Virus record (IMG/VR): IMGVR_UViG_3300042922_000735 | Span: 1-27,989 of that record | Reading direction: 5' to 3' (one strand) | Source of the DNA: a virus | DNA length: 27,989 nt | Part shown: piece after piece, positions 12,216-20,649 of the stretch | Numbering within the stretch: the stretch's first letter is position 1 | How the letters are laid out: each line of letters begins with the position of its first letter | Notes under the pieces: generated by a model | Told to the model about the DNA's origin: nothing | Seen by the model: the letters and a program-made list of their open reading frames with translations, nothing else | The model's database searches: none | Position numbers and translations under genes: made by a program

Positions 12216-13043
12216 ATGGCAGTAAATTTAGCATCCAAATATAGCACAAAAGTTGACGAACGGTTCAAACTGAAATCCCTCACCGAATCCGGCATTAACC
12301 GCGACTATGAATGGGCCGGAGTAAAAACGGTTAACGTATACTCCATTCCCACGGTGGCCTTGAACGATTACACACGGACAGGGCTTGCACGGTACGGAAC
12401 GGCAGCTGAGCTGCAAGACACCGTGCAAGCGTTGACGGTTTCTAAAGACCGTTCCTTTACGTTCACGATTGACCGAGGTAATAAAATCGAGCAGCAGGGA
12501 GTGAAAGAGGCAGGGAAAGCTCTTGCGCGTCAGGTTGACGAAATCATCGTTCCGGAGATCGATACGTATCGACTAACAACCATGGCAACGGCTGCTGTGG
12601 CTGCTGGTGGTACGGCTACGGCGGCTGTAACATCTACCAATGCGTATTCGGTTTTACTGGATGCAGGCGAGTACATGAGTGATAACAAGGTGCCGATTAC
12701 GAGTAGAATCGCATTCGTCACGCCGGCATATTATTCGTTCCTCAAGCTCGATAACTCTTTTATCAAAGCATCCGAAATGGGCCAAAAAATGCTGGTTACA
12801 GGCCAAGTCGGCGAGGTAGACGGAGTAAGAATCATTATGGTGCCGTCCTCGTATTTCCCTGCTAGCACATCCTTCGTTATGTGTCATCCTTCGGCAACGG
12901 TTGCTGCGTCCAAACTCGAGGATTACAAAACCCATGACAATCCGCCTGGAATCAACGGGTGGTTGGTCGAAGGTCGCGTGATTTATGACGCTTTCGTTCT
13001 GAACAACAAAAACAAAGCCGTGTACACGCACAAAATTGCTTAA
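12216..13043 (+). CDS. Major capsid protein (HK97-like fold expected)
   Basis: The 275-residue product begins MAVNLASKYSTKVDERFKLK and has GVKTVNVYSIPTVALNDYTR, ALTVSKDRSFTFTIDRGNKI and a C-terminal WLVEGRVIYDAFVLNNKNKA stretch. These are the features of phage coat proteins of P22-like and related podoviruses, with an N-arm, a spine helix (about 90-118) and a beta A-domain. It follows the scaffold gene by 12 bp with GGAGTGAT upstream. It would build the icosahedral shell. The fold is inferred from family resemblance, since no single residue is diagnostic. Confidence 0.92.
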   Translation: MAVNLASKYSTKVDERFKLKSLTESGINRDYEWAGVKTVNVYSIPTVALNDYTRTGLARYGTAAELQDTVQALTVSKDRSFTFTIDRGNKIEQQGVKEAGKALARQVDEIIVPEIDTYRLTTMATAAVAAGGTATAAVTSTNAYSVLLDAGEYMSDNKVPITSRIAFVTPAYYSFLKLDNSFIKASEMGQKMLVTGQVGEVDGVRIIMVPSSYFPASTSFVMCHPSATVAASKLEDYKTHDNPPGINGWLVEGRVIYDAFVLNNKNKAVYTHKIA

Positions 13044-13227: not shown

Positions 13228-13253
13228 TATACACGAAATGGAGGTGTGAGGTG

Positions 13254-13838
13254 ATGACGCTTCAAGAAATCATAAACAGGGTGAGGATGCTTTATCCCCC
13301 ATCAAGTAAATATGGGAATCCCGATATCATATCCATGATTAACGATGCACAAAACCGAATATTTCGCACGATGTATAAGCCGCAAGTAGCGACCGTCTAT
13401 GATTTAGAAGCAGGAAACCCGGCATATCCAGCAGCATTCTCGCCTGAGAACATCATTGATGTTGTCGTGAACGGGAAGGAATACCCTTATCAAAACATAA
13501 AATATGCTGCTCAACCCTACTACTATTATGTCTTGGACGATTACTCTATCGGAATCTATCCTACTCCAACAGAGGACATAACAAGAGGGCTTAAGATATA
13601 CCACGATAAAGAGCCGGTCACATTGAACGGTTTAAACGACGTTCCCGAACTTGATTCTGCATGGCATATGCTCATCGTGTATTATGCGTGCCGGGAATGC
13701 GCGATTATCGAGAATGACGACAAGGTTAGTAAATTTATTGGCGAAATCAATGAGTTGGAGAGACAATTCCGACGTTCGATACAAGCAAGGCCACATAAGA
13801 TTCAGGATGTTTACGGTGTCGGGAGGGGCGCGGTATGA
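13254..13838 (+). CDS. Head-tail adaptor protein 1 (gp4/gp6-like)
   Basis: Start chosen at the ATG 13254, nine bases after GGAGG; a GTG at 13251 is less likely. The 195-residue protein begins TLQEIINRVRMLYP and has DIISMINDAQNRIF, YYVLDDYSIGIYPTPTED and a C-terminal helix with YYACRECAIIENDDKVSKFI. This is the pattern of ring-forming phage adaptors that bind below the portal. It shares layout with the protein at 17391, suggesting a paralogous pair. The ATGA at its end couples it to the tailspike gene. Confidence 0.75.
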   Translation: MTLQEIINRVRMLYPPSSKYGNPDIISMINDAQNRIFRTMYKPQVATVYDLEAGNPAYPAAFSPENIIDVVVNGKEYPYQNIKYAAQPYYYYVLDDYSIGIYPTPTEDITRGLKIYHDKEPVTLNGLNDVPELDSAWHMLIVYYACRECAIIENDDKVSKFIGEINELERQFRRSIQARPHKIQDVYGVGRGAV

Positions 13839-15595
13839 AGCAAGCTGCGGAGCAAATTGCAGGTCAGACGGATGTAAACTATTTCGAATATAAAAGAATC
13901 AAAGAATTCGACGGTGTAGGATACTTTTTGGAAAATTACGTAGTAGAAGGTGGAATTGTTACAAAAAACGTTTTACAAAGCAATTACATCGATGTGACTG
14001 AGGCGCAGATAAACCTTAATGGTCAATTTACCGTTCTTGCCGCCGCCTCTTTACGCTTAAGCGCGAAGAATTCCACATATTTTCTCGATTTCAAAGATGG
14101 CGACTATACACTTGGAACGTCCCACCCACCCGGAACGGCAGGTACGGATTACCTGCAGATCGCGACGATTACAACAGATTCTAACGGGGCGGTCTCTACA
14201 ATCACGGATAATGCCGGTGACCGTGGTGGATTCCGGCTTAGACCGGGATATGACTTCCCAGAGATCGCTGAACTTCAGGAAGAAATCGGGACCGTTCAAG
14301 GATTAAAAACCGTCGAAGTCGATCCTGCATTCGACAATGGAGTCATCATCAATCAAGCAATACAGGCTTTGACAAGAGGGATTGTACGAATTCCAAAAGG
14401 GAAATACAACGTCACGACAAGAATCGATACAAAGCCTGATGTGCAAATAATCGGCGATGGTTACGGCGTGTCTATATTGAAATATACGGGAACCGATTAT
14501 TGCATCCGGTTGGGTGGCGGGGGGACAGAAGTTTTTGTTGATTTTTGGTTTGGACTATCTATTAAAGATTTAGAGATCGAAGGAACGGGATCAGGTGCGG
14601 GCGGAATACTGGTAAAAGGTATAGCCCGATTCGCAATTGAAAATGTATATTGTCACCACTTTAGCAACGGATACGGAATTCACTTCTTGGATTACGCCTA
14701 CATTGGCAAAGTGGAAAGTTGCAACTGTACCCACAATAAATACGGCATATATGCTTCTAAAACCGCCACTGATATTGCTGCACAAGCCTTTAATGCCATT
14801 ACGATATGCGGTCAAGGAGAGTACCAGGTTAACGAGTATGCAATCGTGATCGGCGACCCTGCCGTTACGGCATCATCCCCGATACTTGGAATGGGTAGCG
14901 TCATTACAGGTATAACGGTGGAAGGTAACGATAAAGGCGGTATTTGGGCTACATCTTGCATCGGGCTTACCATTACAAATGTGTATTTTGAACACAACGA
15001 TTTGACCGACGCGAATAACGGTTTTGATATTAAGTTGGGTAGTGAACTTGGAAATACCGATTTACCCGTAAATACGGTTTTAGAAAATAATCTCCACTTG
15101 AATGACGACTTCAATATCGTTCTAACAAGGTCTTATCATACCATTATCGCAAAAAATCTATTCCAGCAAGGTAGCGTAGGCATCAAAATGACCAATATGA
15201 GTGACGTGATTGACACACAACTCGACAGTAATTTCTTTCACGTCAATGTAACCGTACCCGTAGAGGGATATGTTATTAACTGGATTTCTCCCACATTGCT
15301 AAACGGGTGGCAAAATTACGGGGCGCCCTTCGGTGATTGTGAATACTACAAAGATGGTCGAGGAATAGTCTATCTTAGCGGGACAATCAAGTCCGGAGTG
15401 ATCGGATCGCCCATATTTACTTTGCCATATGGCTACCGACCGAAGTATCATGTCAATCTGCCGACCGCGAGTTTAAGCGAGTTCGGATTGATAAATATAA
15501 CCAATGCGGGTGTCGTTACTGCTACAGTCGGGAATAATGGATGGGTATCTCTTGACGGCATATCGTTCATTTCCGAAGAACTAACGAATCAGTAA
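13835..15595 (+). CDS. Beta-helix tailspike, probable polysaccharide-binding or -degrading
   Basis: The 586-residue protein has an N-terminal virion-binding part (about 1-150), then a pectate-lyase-3-like right-handed beta helix (about 155-490). The entry reads FDNGVIINQAIQALTRG and IVRIPKGKYNVTTRIDTKPD, followed by IIGDGYGVSILKY and repeated short strands with Asn and Gly turns. The C-terminal domain (about 500-586, GRGIVYLSGTIKSGV and FTLPYGYRPKYH) resembles phage fibre end domains. Such spikes bind or cleave surface glycans. No catalytic triad can be assigned by eye. It lies between two adaptor genes and beside a polysaccharide polymerase gene. Confidence 0.88.
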   Translation: MKQAAEQIAGQTDVNYFEYKRIKEFDGVGYFLENYVVEGGIVTKNVLQSNYIDVTEAQINLNGQFTVLAAASLRLSAKNSTYFLDFKDGDYTLGTSHPPGTAGTDYLQIATITTDSNGAVSTITDNAGDRGGFRLRPGYDFPEIAELQEEIGTVQGLKTVEVDPAFDNGVIINQAIQALTRGIVRIPKGKYNVTTRIDTKPDVQIIGDGYGVSILKYTGTDYCIRLGGGGTEVFVDFWFGLSIKDLEIEGTGSGAGGILVKGIARFAIENVYCHHFSNGYGIHFLDYAYIGKVESCNCTHNKYGIYASKTATDIAAQAFNAITICGQGEYQVNEYAIVIGDPAVTASSPILGMGSVITGITVEGNDKGGIWATSCIGLTITNVYFEHNDLTDANNGFDIKLGSELGNTDLPVNTVLENNLHLNDDFNIVLTRSYHTIIAKNLFQQGSVGIKMTNMSDVIDTQLDSNFFHVNVTVPVEGYVINWISPTLLNGWQNYGAPFGDCEYYKDGRGIVYLSGTIKSGVIGSPIFTLPYGYRPKYHVNLPTASLSEFGLINITNAGVVTATVGNNGWVSLDGISFISEELTNQ

Positions 15596-15613
15596 AGTAG
15601 GGAGTGGCATAGC

Positions 15614-15862
15614 ATGAAACAGGTATACAGAACCCGCGAAGACGGAACGTTTGATTTCCTGGACACAATCGTTACGAGCGGAGAAATACCTCAAGGATAC
15701 GGCGTACCGAGTAGTAATAAGCATTATAAGGATGATGGTACCGAATTGTCCGCAGAAGAATTGGCGCAAATCAGTACATCAAATAGTCAAACAAGTATTT
15801 ATTATTTACTTGAATTGGATTATAGGTTGTCCAAGATCGAATTAGGATTGGGAGGACTTTAG
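15614..15862 (+). CDS. 82-residue tailspike-associated protein
   Basis: Preceded by AGGGAGTGG, the product starts MKQVYRTREDGTFDFLDTIV and contains SSNKHYKDDGTELSAEELAQ, then a helical end LLELDYRLSKIELGLGGL. Proteins of this kind occur just downstream of tail-fibre genes in Gram-positive phages, so it may be a spike accessory or chaperone. No motif proves this. It is followed one base later by the next small ORF. Confidence 0.65.
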   Translation: MKQVYRTREDGTFDFLDTIVTSGEIPQGYGVPSSNKHYKDDGTELSAEELAQISTSNSQTSIYYLLELDYRLSKIELGLGGL

Positions 15863-15863
15863 G

Positions 15864-16007
15864 ATGACCTACTTGTATTGTAAGCGAGTTATTGAAAATA
15901 AGACTTTTATAAGCAAAGAAGATATGACAAACAAACTGGACGTGTTTCTCCTAAACAGCCGTATTACCCAAACGCAATATTCCGAGCTGATTGTATTACT
16001 TTCATAA
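15864..16007 (+). CDS. 47-residue XkdX-like small tail-region protein
   Basis: The ORF has GGAGG upstream and encodes MTYLYCKRVIENKTFISKED followed by KLDVFLLNSRITQTQYSELI. The 'RIT-x-x-QY-x-EL' ending resembles the XkdX-type tiny proteins found after tail-fibre genes in Bacillus-group phages. Their function is not established. It is the last intact rightward gene before the inserted leftward gene. Confidence 0.65.
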   Translation: MTYLYCKRVIENKTFISKEDMTNKLDVFLLNSRITQTQYSELIVLLS

Positions 16008-16046
16008 GGTTTCCAATCGACCATAGATAGGAAGGTGAGGCGGTAG

Positions 16047-16193
16047 ATGGAACAGACAGGTGATTACGAAGCCTGTCTGTTCTCTACACTGGAGTATCTA
16101 GCCAGAAGAAGAGATAGGAGCATTACAAATCTCGGCTCATATATTCCAACGTTCATTGTAAAAATTAGAAATAATGGAACAAGGAAAAAGTAG
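16047..16193 (+). CDS. Doubtful 48-residue ORF at insertion edge
   Basis: AAGGTGAGG (16032-16040) is ideally placed six bases before this ATG. The ORF, MEQTGDYEACLFSTLEYLAR and on to GTRKK, lies almost wholly antisense to the 3' end of the leftward polymerase gene. Either it is a spurious ORF, or the ribosome site belonged to a rightward gene that was cut off when the leftward gene was acquired. I cannot separate these. Confidence 0.25.
   Translation: MEQTGDYEACLFSTLEYLARRRDRSITNLGSYIPTFIVKIRNNGTRKK
16050..16082. terminator. 11-bp hairpin at 3' end of leftward gene
   Basis: GAACAGACAGG (16050-16060) and CCTGTCTGTTC (16072-16082) form a perfect stem with an eleven-base loop that holds the stop codon of the leftward gene (complement of 16064-16066). 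No good T-run follows on either strand, so it may stabilise the mRNA end rather than terminate efficiently. Confidence 0.5.
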
Positions 16194-17284
16194 GCTGCCC
16201 ATGTTGTGTTTACTCTCTTCCTGAAAAAGATATATATGAAGATTGCATATGCTATAAAACCATAACTATAAATCAAATGGAGGTGTCCGTTATGAGGACT
16301 GAATACAACTCCGTCTATAATGAGAGTTCCGCCCATCCCGTAAAATAAATACTTGAAGATATTTTCTCGAGATAGAAGATCTGTCCATATGTCAAATCGT
16401 GAATCTGCGGAATTTCCTGAAACTCGATCCAACGCCGTTTGTGCCACCTCAGAACCCCAAAATTTGTATATAATTAATAAAAGCAGAGGAGTTGAAAGAA
16501 ATAAAATAGATAAATCAAGTAAAGTTGATCTTTTAAACGTGGCAAACCTTCTAAATTTAAGCGATTTTACAATAAAAAATAGTATGGAAATTCCAAATAC
16601 GACAAATCCGGTACTGCTCATTGTGGCGAATACGATTATTGAGGTTGCTCCTATTAACAATACGTTTTGCATCAAAGAGAATTTATTATTAAGCAATAAA
16701 AATACCATAACAGCTATAAATGCTACAGAAGCATTATTGGGATCGCTAAACGTTCCCGTAAATCGAAAAATTGTAAGCGAATCAGTCACTGCTATAACAT
16801 TTCCACTCATGGTCCAAAGTGACCTTACTTCAAAATAAGTTGATGGATTCGTTAAATATATTGTGCAAAGTGCAAACCCAAAAAGAATATAAAGCACAAG
16901 AAATTTACTGAATTGTACTTTGTTTGCTTCGAAATAATATTTATAGAAAAAATAATACAAAAAGCCATATAGAAGGATACCAGAATTCGTAATATTGGAT
17001 TTTAAAAAAAAGGGGAATGTCGTCACGGATAAAGACACACTCAATACAACTAGAGACAAAAGGACCAGAAAAAGTTTAAATTCGAATGTTTTTTTAATCT
17101 TGTTAAGATTGAAAATGTACCAAATAGGCAACAAAATCATCGACATGCTTGCCGATACTGTTCGTATATACGGTAAAAAAAGAGCGTCAAATATACAGAT
17201 GTAAAATATAAGTTTATCCATCTTGCTAATTATTGGTGCAACTTTAGAATTCAATTGATGGGTTAGTGGAGGATTTACATGCAA
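16064..17284 (-). CDS. Wzy/WaaL-like polysaccharide polymerase or ligase (membrane)
   Basis: This leftward gene encodes a very hydrophobic protein of up to 406 residues with about ten to twelve membrane helices. Family marks are RFTGTFSDPNN (174-184), the extracytoplasmic segment SADSRFDIW (292-300) and SPHNGHLHLIYSYG (329-342). The last nearly fits the H[NSQ]X9GXX[GTY] motif known in O-antigen ligases and Wzy-type polymerases, with Ala in the final place. Such enzymes join lipid-linked glycan units at the outer face of the membrane. The start is uncertain: TTG at 17284 has GGAG ten bases upstream, while ATG at 17221 begins right before the first helix without a ribosome site. The gene is visibly AT-rich and antisense to all its neighbours, so it is probably acquired cargo. 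Confidence 0.82.
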   Translation of the reverse strand: MHVNPPLTHQLNSKVAPIISKMDKLIFYICIFDALFLPYIRTVSASMSMILLPIWYIFNLNKIKKTFEFKLFLVLLSLVVLSVSLSVTTFPFFLKSNITNSGILLYGFLYYFFYKYYFEANKVQFSKFLVLYILFGFALCTIYLTNPSTYFEVRSLWTMSGNVIAVTDSLTIFRFTGTFSDPNNASVAFIAVMVFLLLNNKFSLMQNVLLIGATSIIVFATMSSTGFVVFGISILFFIVKSLKFRRFATFKRSTLLDLSILFLSTPLLLLIIYKFWGSEVAQTALDRVSGNSADSRFDIWTDLLSRENIFKYLFYGMGGTLIIDGVVFSPHNGHLHLIYSYGFIAYAIFIYIFFRKRVNTTWAAYFFLVPLFLIFTMNVGIYEPRFVMLLSLLLARYSSVENRQAS

Positions 17285-17329: not shown

Positions 17330-17358
17330 ATGATACAAAAATTCAGAATGTTTCACAA
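17330..17358 (-). promoter_or_regulatory. Promoter of the leftward polymerase gene
   Basis: On the complement, TTGTGA (17353-17358) and TATCAT (17330-17335) are separated by 17 bp, a fair housekeeping-type promoter. It is about 45 bp before the TTG start of the polymerase gene and points away from the phage late transcripts. A second overlapping pair (TTGTAT with TAAAAT, 16-bp spacing) is also present. This would allow expression in the lysogen. Confidence 0.55.
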
Positions 17359-17390: not shown

Positions 17391-17951
17391 ATGCTTACCA
17401 TACAACAAATCATAGATGAAGCTGACCTTCTGGTTCCGAATTCCTATCAACTGGCTGATAAGGTTAATTGGCTGAATAAAATCAATTCAGAATTCTTCGA
17501 AAACGTAAAGATACCAGTATCAACGATCTTTATGACTACACTTAATCAATCGAGTTATTTGCTGCCAAATGAGGTCAGAGGAAATAACATCGATCACGTC
17601 CAACTTGGATTGCTTACTTATAGCTCAATGAATTACGAAGATGTCCGCTCGTCACAGATTTTTTATATTTTTGATGACAGCACCCATAAAATTACGTTCT
17701 ATCCGGAACCATACGCAGCAGCACAACAGACCGTAGTGAGATACCATCGGATCGCGACGTCTAGCTTCACTACTGGCACTTTAAGCGCGAAACCGGATGC
17801 TCCAGGGGAATATCACTGGATATACGTGAACGGGTTGTGTGAGCGCATAGCGAAGGCTAACGGGGATGTCGAGAAGGCAAACAACTACGGAAACGATTAT
17901 CGAAACGGTTTGGCAACAGCGGCGAAAAACTTCGCGAAACTAGGTGATTGA
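17391..17951 (+). CDS. Head-tail adaptor protein 2
   Basis: The 186-residue product starts MLTIQQIIDEADLLVPNSYQ and contains DKVNWLNKINSEFFENVK, IFYIFDDSTHKITFYPEPYA and a helical end with CERIAKANGDVEKANNYGND. The order of elements matches the adaptor at 13254, although identity is low. It probably forms a second ring between portal and tail hub, or replaces the other one functionally. AAGGAG lies nine bases upstream of the ATG. It comes just before the large tail protein gene, as gp4 comes before gp10 in P22. Confidence 0.72.
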   Translation: MLTIQQIIDEADLLVPNSYQLADKVNWLNKINSEFFENVKIPVSTIFMTTLNQSSYLLPNEVRGNNIDHVQLGLLTYSSMNYEDVRSSQIFYIFDDSTHKITFYPEPYAAAQQTVVRYHRIATSSFTTGTLSAKPDAPGEYHWIYVNGLCERIAKANGDVEKANNYGNDYRNGLATAAKNFAKLGD

Positions 17952-17953
17952 AC

Positions 17954-19393
17954 ATGCGAGAGTCTTCACCGGAAAAATTCGTCCCGTGGACACAGACGAA
18001 GGATAATCGAATCCCAAATACGATCAGGGAGTTCAGGGGCGTCAACAAGCTTGACGCTTTTTCTATTGGTGACATATTTTCCGCGGATATGAAGAATCTA
18101 ACAAGCAGCAAATACCCAGCTTTGACCGTGAGGCCGGGGTATGCACAGATCGGTGCAACCATAGGTAATAAGGTACTCGGTATCGGCGTTTGGAAGGATG
18201 CGGAGCTGCACGCCGTATTTAACGACGGGACATGGCGAAAGTGGGACGGAAGCGCTTGGACGACAATTAAAAGTGGACTATCAACGACGGCTGAAGTATA
18301 TTTCACAAATTTCCAAGGAGCATACACGGGGATTAATCTGATTATGGCGAATGGGGTCGATGCGGTCCAACGCTATGATGGGGCAACGGTCCAAAATGTG
18401 TTGAACGCGCCGTCGAACGCGAAGTATATTACCACGTTTCAAAATCGGCTGTGGGTGAGTATGAACGGGGACAAGGAAATCCGTGCATCTGCCTTGGATA
18501 ATGCGGAGGAATGGACGCCGGGAGTCCTGAACGATTCATTACCTTTCGGCAAGGAAATCGAGTCTCCAGTAGGCGAAACGATCAATGGCCTATTTGGGGA
18601 GTTGGCCAAACTGACCATCAGTTTTCCAAATTCCATACGCAAACTACTCGGAGGCGTACCGTCCGACTTCAATGATCAGTCTGTTTCGCAAACGCTCGGT
18701 ATCGTGAACAATAGGTCGGCGGTAACGCTAGACGGAACGATGTATTTGTTCAATGCTAATGGTTTTTATAGTTACAGCGGTGGAGTTTCGCCGGACAAAT
18801 CGGTATCACAAGTTGTTCAGTATTACGCCGACAATTCGAACACCGCGGCACGGAATCAATCGGCGGTCGGGTCCGATGGAAAGAATCTGTATTTTGCAAT
18901 CCCGATCAGCAGTTCGACAGCACCGGACACGATTATCGAATACGACAAAACGGTACGCGCTTGGAACGTCTGGAAGGACATTCAGGCTCTTCATTTCGTC
19001 CGCATGGGTAATGACTGCTACATCGGGGATGCGCTCGGCAGAGTGCTTAAAATGGGCGGCACAACGGACAATGGAACAGCGATATCGTCAGAACTCATAT
19101 CCAAATGGTTCACGGCTCCTTCGATGTCCCAAGTTATTCGATGGATGCGCATGTGGCTGACCGTGGATTTGCCTTCCGGCAGCTCGTTAACGGTCTATTT
19201 GAACAAATCCGAGGACGAACCATGGGAGGAAGTGGGGTCCATTACCGCATCAAGCGATATCCAACGGAAGCCGATCTACGTAGCATCGAGTAAAGTTACG
19301 AATGCGAAACAGCTTCGTTACCGAATCGTTGGCAGCGGACCCTATACCCTGCATGAAATCGCATGGGATGCCGATTATCAGCCGATGAGATAG
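17954..19393 (+). CDS. Tail hub or DNA-stabilisation protein (P22 gp10-like)
   Basis: Start set at the ATG 17954 because AGGTGAT at 17942-17948 fits it; a TTG at 17948 is less likely. The 479-residue protein is beta-rich, with early NKLDAFSIGDIFSADMKNLT and repeated blade-like segments such as VFNDGTWRKWDGSAWTTI, RYDGATVQNVLNAPSNAK and YDKTVRAWNVWKDIQALHFV. This suggests a beta-propeller-like tail protein of the kind that closes the portal channel in short-tailed phages. The final region (about 385-479) may be a separate beta-sandwich. Function is inferred from position after an adaptor gene. Confidence 0.72.
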   Translation: MRESSPEKFVPWTQTKDNRIPNTIREFRGVNKLDAFSIGDIFSADMKNLTSSKYPALTVRPGYAQIGATIGNKVLGIGVWKDAELHAVFNDGTWRKWDGSAWTTIKSGLSTTAEVYFTNFQGAYTGINLIMANGVDAVQRYDGATVQNVLNAPSNAKYITTFQNRLWVSMNGDKEIRASALDNAEEWTPGVLNDSLPFGKEIESPVGETINGLFGELAKLTISFPNSIRKLLGGVPSDFNDQSVSQTLGIVNNRSAVTLDGTMYLFNANGFYSYSGGVSPDKSVSQVVQYYADNSNTAARNQSAVGSDGKNLYFAIPISSSTAPDTIIEYDKTVRAWNVWKDIQALHFVRMGNDCYIGDALGRVLKMGGTTDNGTAISSELISKWFTAPSMSQVIRWMRMWLTVDLPSGSSLTVYLNKSEDEPWEEVGSITASSDIQRKPIYVASSKVTNAKQLRYRIVGSGPYTLHEIAWDADYQPMR

Positions 19394-20161: not shown

Positions 20162-20190
20162 TTGGCTTAAAAACGATGGATGTGATAATT

Positions 20191-20649
20191 ATGAAGAAGT
20201 TTATTATTGGAGTCCTTTTTGGAGTTATTTTATCAACCTCGATGAGCGTATATGGGGAAGAGGTGAAAAGCGTAGTGGGGCAAGCAATTCAAGGGACATT
20301 TCCAGTTAAGGTTAACGGCGATATTCTGAATAATGAGGCCGTTGTGCTTGATGGAACTTCATACCTTCCGGTTCGGGAAATTAGTGAGAAGTTAGGTATG
20401 GAAGTGAAATTCACACCTGATACCGGAATTGAGTTAACCCGACCTGAACCGAAGTTGGATAATACCGGAATGCCGATAGGTTACTGGACAAAAGAACGTC
20501 TGGATATCGCTATAGAATCACAAAAAAAAGTACTCATCTCTCGTGAAAATATGGCGAGAATATCAGGCGTACCTGATCCCGAAGGCATAGCAAAAGCTAA
20601 AGACCGTCTTGCGGAATTGGAAAAGATGAGAGATGAGTTGTTGAAATGA
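20191..20649 (+). CDS. Secreted protein with copper-amine-oxidase-N1 (stalk) domain
   Basis: From the ATG at 20191 the product is 152 residues with a clear signal peptide: MKK, hydrophobic core FIIGVLFGVILSTSMSV and a likely cut near YGEE. Residues about 35-75 (VKVNGDILNNEAVVLDGTSY, then LPVREISEKLGMEV) match the stalk domain found in many Paenibacillaceae surface proteins. A charged coiled-coil tail follows (about 95-152). An in-frame ATG at 20176 would mask the signal peptide and is less likely. Own promoter and terminator suggest lysogenic expression as a 'moron' gene, altering the cell surface. The molecular target is unknown. Confidence 0.82.
   Translation: MKKFIIGVLFGVILSTSMSVYGEEVKSVVGQAIQGTFPVKVNGDILNNEAVVLDGTSYLPVREISEKLGMEVKFTPDTGIELTRPEPKLDNTGMPIGYWTKERLDIAIESQKKVLISRENMARISGVPDPEGIAKAKDRLAELEKMRDELLK

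Follow-up and report, generated by a model that had tools for sequence, protein, structure and literature searches.

Why should a short-tailed phage carry, within its virion gene cluster and on the opposite strand, a gene for a membrane protein resembling the polymerases of surface polysaccharides? The question is raised by a linear virus record of 27,989 bases (IMGVR_UViG_3300042922_000735, the whole of which is referred to here as the window), in which such a gene, encoding 406 amino acids (aa), lies between the receptor-binding tailspike gene and the nozzle gene. A survey of related loci shows that this interval, hereafter the slot, has in related prophages repeatedly received different glycan polymerases and O-acyltransferases, and that the linkage of spike and enzyme is recurrent, not obligate. 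This suggests that related phages repeatedly acquire genes altering the coat recognised by their own spike and, judging from sequence, the slot is probably best explained as a lysogenic-conversion cassette.

The survey was seeded with the nozzle, as the adaptor and terminase seeds were unhelpful or too widespread. The nozzle gave 10 matches in nine named genomes, all Paenibacillus, and 48 further matches in 45 of 396 genomes of that family, with many in viral contigs; among named phage isolates none had a close nozzle. Open reading frames (ORFs) were taken from 139 nozzle loci. At a nozzle identity of 95% these loci form 102 clusters, of which 96 extend 4.5 kb or more upstream. An ORF was scored if its product had 180 aa or more and five or more membrane segments predicted from hydropathy. 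With the slot set as the 3.5 kb before the nozzle, or 18% of the 1.93 Mb counted, a slot membrane protein located between adaptor and nozzle was found in 17 of the 102 clusters, and outside the slot only one locus (L298) had a comparable gene in the same 1.93 Mb; the binomial p for this enrichment is 3e-12 with bases as the measure and 2e-11 with the share of ORFs. The L298 gene (18720-19901, minus strand) belongs to the Acyl_transf_3 family of O-acyltransferases and lies 8.8 kb downstream of the nozzle. An antisense ORF of 311 aa with 8 hydrophobic segments in L052 and L146, opposite the scaffold region and without a Pfam match, was judged to be a shadow ORF and set aside. Adjacent pairs of multi-spanning proteins with similar starts, AgrB-like by eye, were seen near one end of two prophage records (G005, 38445-39627; G015, 41301-42496).

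Sixteen of the 17 slot proteins match a polymerase or O-acyltransferase family: nine match Wzy_C (two below the cut-off), two EpsG (L071 and L181), one O-ag_pol_Wzy (L183, exactly at the cut-off, with TIGR04370, oligosaccharide repeat unit polymerase, above its cut-off) and four Acyl_transf_3 (L062, L185, L268 and L272). The Wzy_C scores above the cut-off of 31.7 bits are those of L052 (73.2), L056 (65.6), L166 (58.1), L169 (47.5), L309 (41.7), L184 (40.8) and L293 (39.4), and those under it are the window's (27.3) and L168's (20.1). The seventeenth protein, from L165, had no hmmscan match up to 0.01, and a separate search gave a weak Wzy_C match of 23.4 bits. The L169 protein is also similar to TuaE, from the teichuronic acid pathway (65.9 bits; the model cut-off is 400), and a profile of nine slot polymerases, the window's excluded, matched the solved structures of WaaL (7TPG, 7.1e-7) and an oligosaccharyltransferase (9RMK, 4.2e-8). 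When PF04932 (Wzy_C) was searched against 34 records and genomes, the only matches among virus records were the slot genes of G002 (L052) and G005 (L056). The enzymes of L056 and L166 are 73% identical; otherwise only a minority of pairs align by BLAST, at 33% identity or less, and since most do not align at all several separate acquisitions are likely. The enzyme lies directly after the spike in most carriers, between two spikes in L071 and before the adaptor in L185; seven are antisense and ten sense, and 15 of the 17 have a GC content at least 5 points below their surroundings. The slot Acyl_transf_3 members match the PHROG families for O-acetyltransferase and O-antigen acetylase, and none of three polymerase-type proteins strongly assigned by Pfam has a PHROG match; such genes may therefore be overlooked in phage annotation. 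In L056 (8264-8569) and L166 (8745-9146), both on the minus strand, the slot polymerase gene is overlapped at its 3' end by a gene for a small membrane protein (101 and 133 aa, respectively) that has no Pfam match and is possibly a partner or chain-length factor.

The other slot content seen consisted of spikes, small fibre-associated genes, one DUF6270 gene, recombinase genes at two loci, and little else. The DUF6270 gene (L065, 8350-9045, plus strand; 9.1e-52) follows the spike. A tyrosine recombinase gene (L165, 9472-10464, minus strand; Phage_integrase 1.4e-37) adjoins the polymerase-like gene, and two slot ORFs of L175 (9379-9954 and 8952-9428, minus strand) resemble pieces of a recombinase gene like that of L165. 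A slot recombinase might help slot exchange.

In the window the gene order is TerS/TerL, P22-type portal, scaffold, major capsid protein, adaptor 1, spike, two small genes, the antisense 406-aa gene, adaptor 2 and nozzle. An earlier sequence-only reading had placed the spike, the two small genes and the antisense gene between two adaptor genes, and the ORFs and Pfam bear this layout out, as both flanking genes pass the SU10_adaptor (PF24175) cut-off. The features are as follows, L051 being the nearest relative.

13251-13838, plus strand: SU10-type head-tail adaptor 1, bounding the spike slot on its upstream side (PF24175, 1.9e-19, 71.3 bits, cut-off 27; 59% identity to L051)
13835-15595, plus strand: receptor-binding tailspike, 586 aa (PF13229, Beta_helix, 34.1 bits, cut-off 25.9; phrog_13022)
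15614-15862, plus strand: small spike-associated gene, 82 aa, without a Pfam or PHROG family match
15864-16007, plus strand: small spike-associated gene, 47 aa (phrog_2310, 8e-15)
16050-16082, no strand assigned: perfect 11-bp inverted repeat with an 11-nt loop, spanning the stop codon of the polymerase-like gene (minus-strand fold z -4.7)
16064-17284, minus strand: Wzy/WaaL-like polytopic membrane protein, 406 aa, TTG start (PF04932, 3.6e-6, below cut-off; 33% GC)
17330-17358, minus strand: promoter-like pair TTGTGA-17-TATCAT, preceding the polymerase-like gene (9 of 12 matches; not above chance)
17391-17951, plus strand: SU10-type head-tail adaptor 2, bounding the slot on its downstream side (PF24175, 5.4e-13, 50.3 bits, cut-off 27; 61% identity to L051)
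17948-19393, plus strand: nozzle, P22 gp10-like, the survey anchor gene (phrog_3287; weakly similar to records that bear the annotation "phage stabilization protein"; 88% identity to L051)

The polymerase-like gene was rightly described in that reading as AT-rich, with a GC content of 33% compared with 48% elsewhere in the contig, and no direct repeats pointing to a recent insertion were found around it. The inverted repeat over its stop codon, which has no T-run, is a possible convergent terminator; in L293 a stem with a T-run follows the antisense polymerase. The description of the phage as a podovirus is likewise supported, by the P22-type portal (PF16510) and by the nozzle with its relatives in the nine named Paenibacillus genomes.

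The spike comprises an N-terminal virion anchor (about residues 1-177), a body that the Beta_helix score identifies as a right-handed beta-helix, and a C-terminal domain (about 483-580) common with tail fibres; the C-terminal 16-17% also occurs in fibres of Geobacillus, Streptomyces and other phages. Its first 177-205 residues or so are shared with the spikes of L051, L076, L165 and L309 and the remainder differs or is far more diverged, which is the pattern of a conserved anchor with an exchanged receptor domain. An AlphaFold2 model reached a mean predicted local distance difference test (pLDDT) score of 36. The spike probably grips surface sugars of the host. L051 lacks a polymerase, and its spike past residue 177 is a GDSL-type hydrolase. 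Its identity to the window is 94% in the large ejected-type protein, 88% in the nozzle and 85% in the portal, and within the interval it is 59% and 61% in the adaptors and 45% across the first 177 residues of the otherwise different spike; such a dip over the adaptor-bounded interval would be expected of an exchanged cassette.

How might a conversion cassette of this kind work? Prophage relatives in Paenibacillus-type chromosomes carry a surface-polysaccharide enzyme in the slot, and both Wzy_C and Wzx-type (PF01943) genes are present in each of the ten carrier genomes examined. Eight of the ten have a Wzy_C gene and a Wzx-type flippase gene no more than about 5 kb apart, in chromosomal Wzx/Wzy loci (for example G245, C1:1153441 and 1154201; G061, C208:3573 and 4212), and the phage polymerase could use the host lipid-linked repeat units at such loci. 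The host would flip undecaprenyl-linked repeat units, which the 406-aa protein would take and join by a linkage other than that of the host Wzy, or ligate elsewhere, and the altered surface polymer of the lysogen would no longer fit the spike encoded next door. With the two genes linked, an exchange of the slot would move the coat-changing enzyme along with the receptor-binding protein that it matches. We put forward more tentatively the general proposition that Paenibacillus-type podoviruses have a conserved conversion slot in the virion gene cluster, where non-homologous polymerases or O-acyltransferases have settled beside the spike time after time and would remodel the spike-bound polymer, such that recognition and receptor change may evolve as one exchangeable cassette.

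Several observations weigh against lysogenic conversion, and they concern the survey, the pairing of spike and enzyme, the timing of expression and the 406-aa protein itself. As to the survey, the size, membrane and 3.5-kb thresholds were set after the first examples had been seen, the loci extend no further than about 10 kb from the nozzle in each direction, and the clusters are not fully independent, L056 and L166 having homologous enzymes. Among 21 whole or nearly whole records, three (G005, G009 and G015) have multi-spanning proteins further off.

As to the pairing, most relatives, including L051, have a spike and no enzyme. The L307 spike is 47% identical to that of L169, a carrier, and L307 too lacks an enzyme. 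A strict one-to-one pairing of spike and polymerase is not borne out by these cases, and we reject obligate pairing on the L051 and L307 spikes. There are also L165 and L309, whose spikes are related along their length (32%) and which each have a Wzy-like gene, the two genes not being alignable with one another, and L056 and L166, which retain both partners (spike 85%, polymerase 73%). Independent variation of the two genes among related phages, which the sequence-only reading had named as the outcome that would count against it, is therefore what we find with respect to obligate pairing and not with respect to recurrent linkage. The lack of obligate pairing would suit an explanation in which the slot is a tolerant insertion point exchanged with spikes, and the enzymes are host-fitness morons kept for biofilm, exopolysaccharide or stress traits or for blocking other phages rather than for the linked spike. 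The enzyme genes are, like morons, AT-rich, foreign and found on either strand, and the spikes of carriers and non-carriers are broadly alike, a pectate-lyase-type match being found in 12 of 17 and 38 of 76, respectively, with no clear difference. However, a neutral insertion point should gather unrelated morons, and beyond spikes and small fibre genes almost only glycan enzymes were seen; we consider this explanation unlikely.

As to timing, the lysogeny of the window's phage is suggested by its relatives, of which the complete-looking ones are mostly 36-47 kb; no integrase was seen in the window's 28-kb linear record. Because the window's gene is antisense to the late operon, it may be active in the prophage, with late transcription running against it in lytic growth. 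An antisense gene within the plus-strand operon would need its own promoter, and the promoter that the sequence-only reading had credited to it did not hold up, as the region has 11 -35/-10-like sites and shuffled versions of it have 8.4 +/- 3.0. The case for lysogen-specific expression is less clear for the 10 of the 17 enzymes on the sense strand, which, being co-directional with the late genes and directly after the spike, would fit enzymes made in the lytic cycle that alter the polymer before lysis, so that progeny avoid sticking to debris. Seven enzymes, the window's included, nevertheless point against the late operon, and polymer already displayed would need to be replaced within one infection cycle, which leads us to regard late anti-adsorption as improbable.

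As to the 406-aa protein, its eight hydropathy segments make it a polytopic membrane protein, and its sole Pfam match at E <= 1 is to Wzy_C, over 138 residues reaching the profile end (E 3.6e-6). At 27.3 bits against a cut-off of 31.7 it is the weakest but one of the slot Wzy_C cases, and it matches the other slot polymerases weakly (hhalign probability 36%). The AlphaFold2 model has a pLDDT of 39.9, and a solved-structure search with this protein alone gave no match. There was no NCBIfam or PHROG match, no relative in phages, plasmids, viral contigs or genome contigs, and in the 396 related genomes a single fragment, weak and broken. Where slot relatives align it has R..W and PHN..L motifs; R295 is invariant in a six-member alignment, and the PHN is aligned with the HN of L052 and L308 and is not kept in L056 and L309. 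In the Wzy_C / O-antigen ligase-polymerase family a conserved Arg and His of the large outer loop are of functional importance. The sub-threshold score, the missing NCBIfam match and the low-confidence model would all suit an unrelated polytopic protein, for example a transporter, but the Wzy_C match running to the profile end and a position common to clear polymerases make this very improbable. We assign the protein to Wzy_C, provisionally, on the sub-threshold profile together with position. The sequence-only reading is right in that a Wzy/WaaL-like protein, with a profile score below the cut-off, is linked to a spike of the glycan type in a phage whose host is Gram-positive.

We class the system under the conversion theme of P22, Sf6 and D3, as a variant in Gram-positive hosts. 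Pseudomonas phage D3 converts the O-antigen by means of a polymerase, acting on the lipopolysaccharide of a Gram-negative host with a cassette that includes an inhibitor and an acetylase. Slot phages likewise carry a polymerase that would override the host's; in contrast to D3, no inhibitor has been identified in them. P22-like phages carry conversion genes for the polymer bound by their tailspike, and gtrABC of the P22-like phages and the O-acetyltransferase of Sf6 and Sf101 similarly occur in short-tailed phages that have swappable tailspikes, conserved N-terminal anchors and genes modifying the spike-recognised polysaccharide (PMC2629481; PMC8787464). The slot phages differ in their Gram-positive hosts and in carrying mostly polymerases rather than glucosyltransferases. 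The position differs as well: the slot genes are embedded among structural genes, between adaptor and nozzle, and those for conversion in Shigella phages are close to the int-att region (PMC8787464). WzyPh1, found in several different Acinetobacter prophages, overrides the chromosomal Wzy and changes the capsule linkage; it is of the EpsG family, as are the L071 and L181 enzymes, but has a Gram-negative host, and the passages on it do not describe a link to a tailspike slot (PMC9241936). The staphylococcal prophage enzyme TarP does alter a Gram-positive surface glycopolymer, as a wall teichoic acid glycosyltransferase, whereas the slot enzymes are mostly polymerases (PMC9650247). No report of spike-linked polymerases in Gram-positive podoviruses was found in the open-access literature, which is not proof of absence. 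If conversion is indeed the role of the slot, the alteration of surface-polymer linkages by phages, described chiefly for the O-antigens and capsules of Gram-negative bacteria, would be a recurrent strategy against a Gram-positive surface glycan as well. It could be recognised just from where genes lie in the genome, since a multi-spanning gene next to the spike would predict the receptor class (a Wzx/Wzy-made polymer), and matched sets of spikes and polymerases would be in hand.

Elsewhere in the window, the capsid protein (12216-13043) is nearest to those of sheathed or long-tailed phages (57% identity to Dulem virus 31 and 51% to Geobacillus phage phiOH2), and since the portal and nozzle are P22-like the head appears mosaic. 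Dulem virus 31 (PP511318) is classed under Microviridae, yet has terminase, sheath and tape-measure genes. The large protein that is 94% identical in L051 (21929-25936; 1,335 aa) has an LPD38 domain (8e-35) and is likely an ejected internal protein, and a 157-aa protein (20176-20649) has a weak copper amine oxidase N-terminal match (2e-4, below cut-off).

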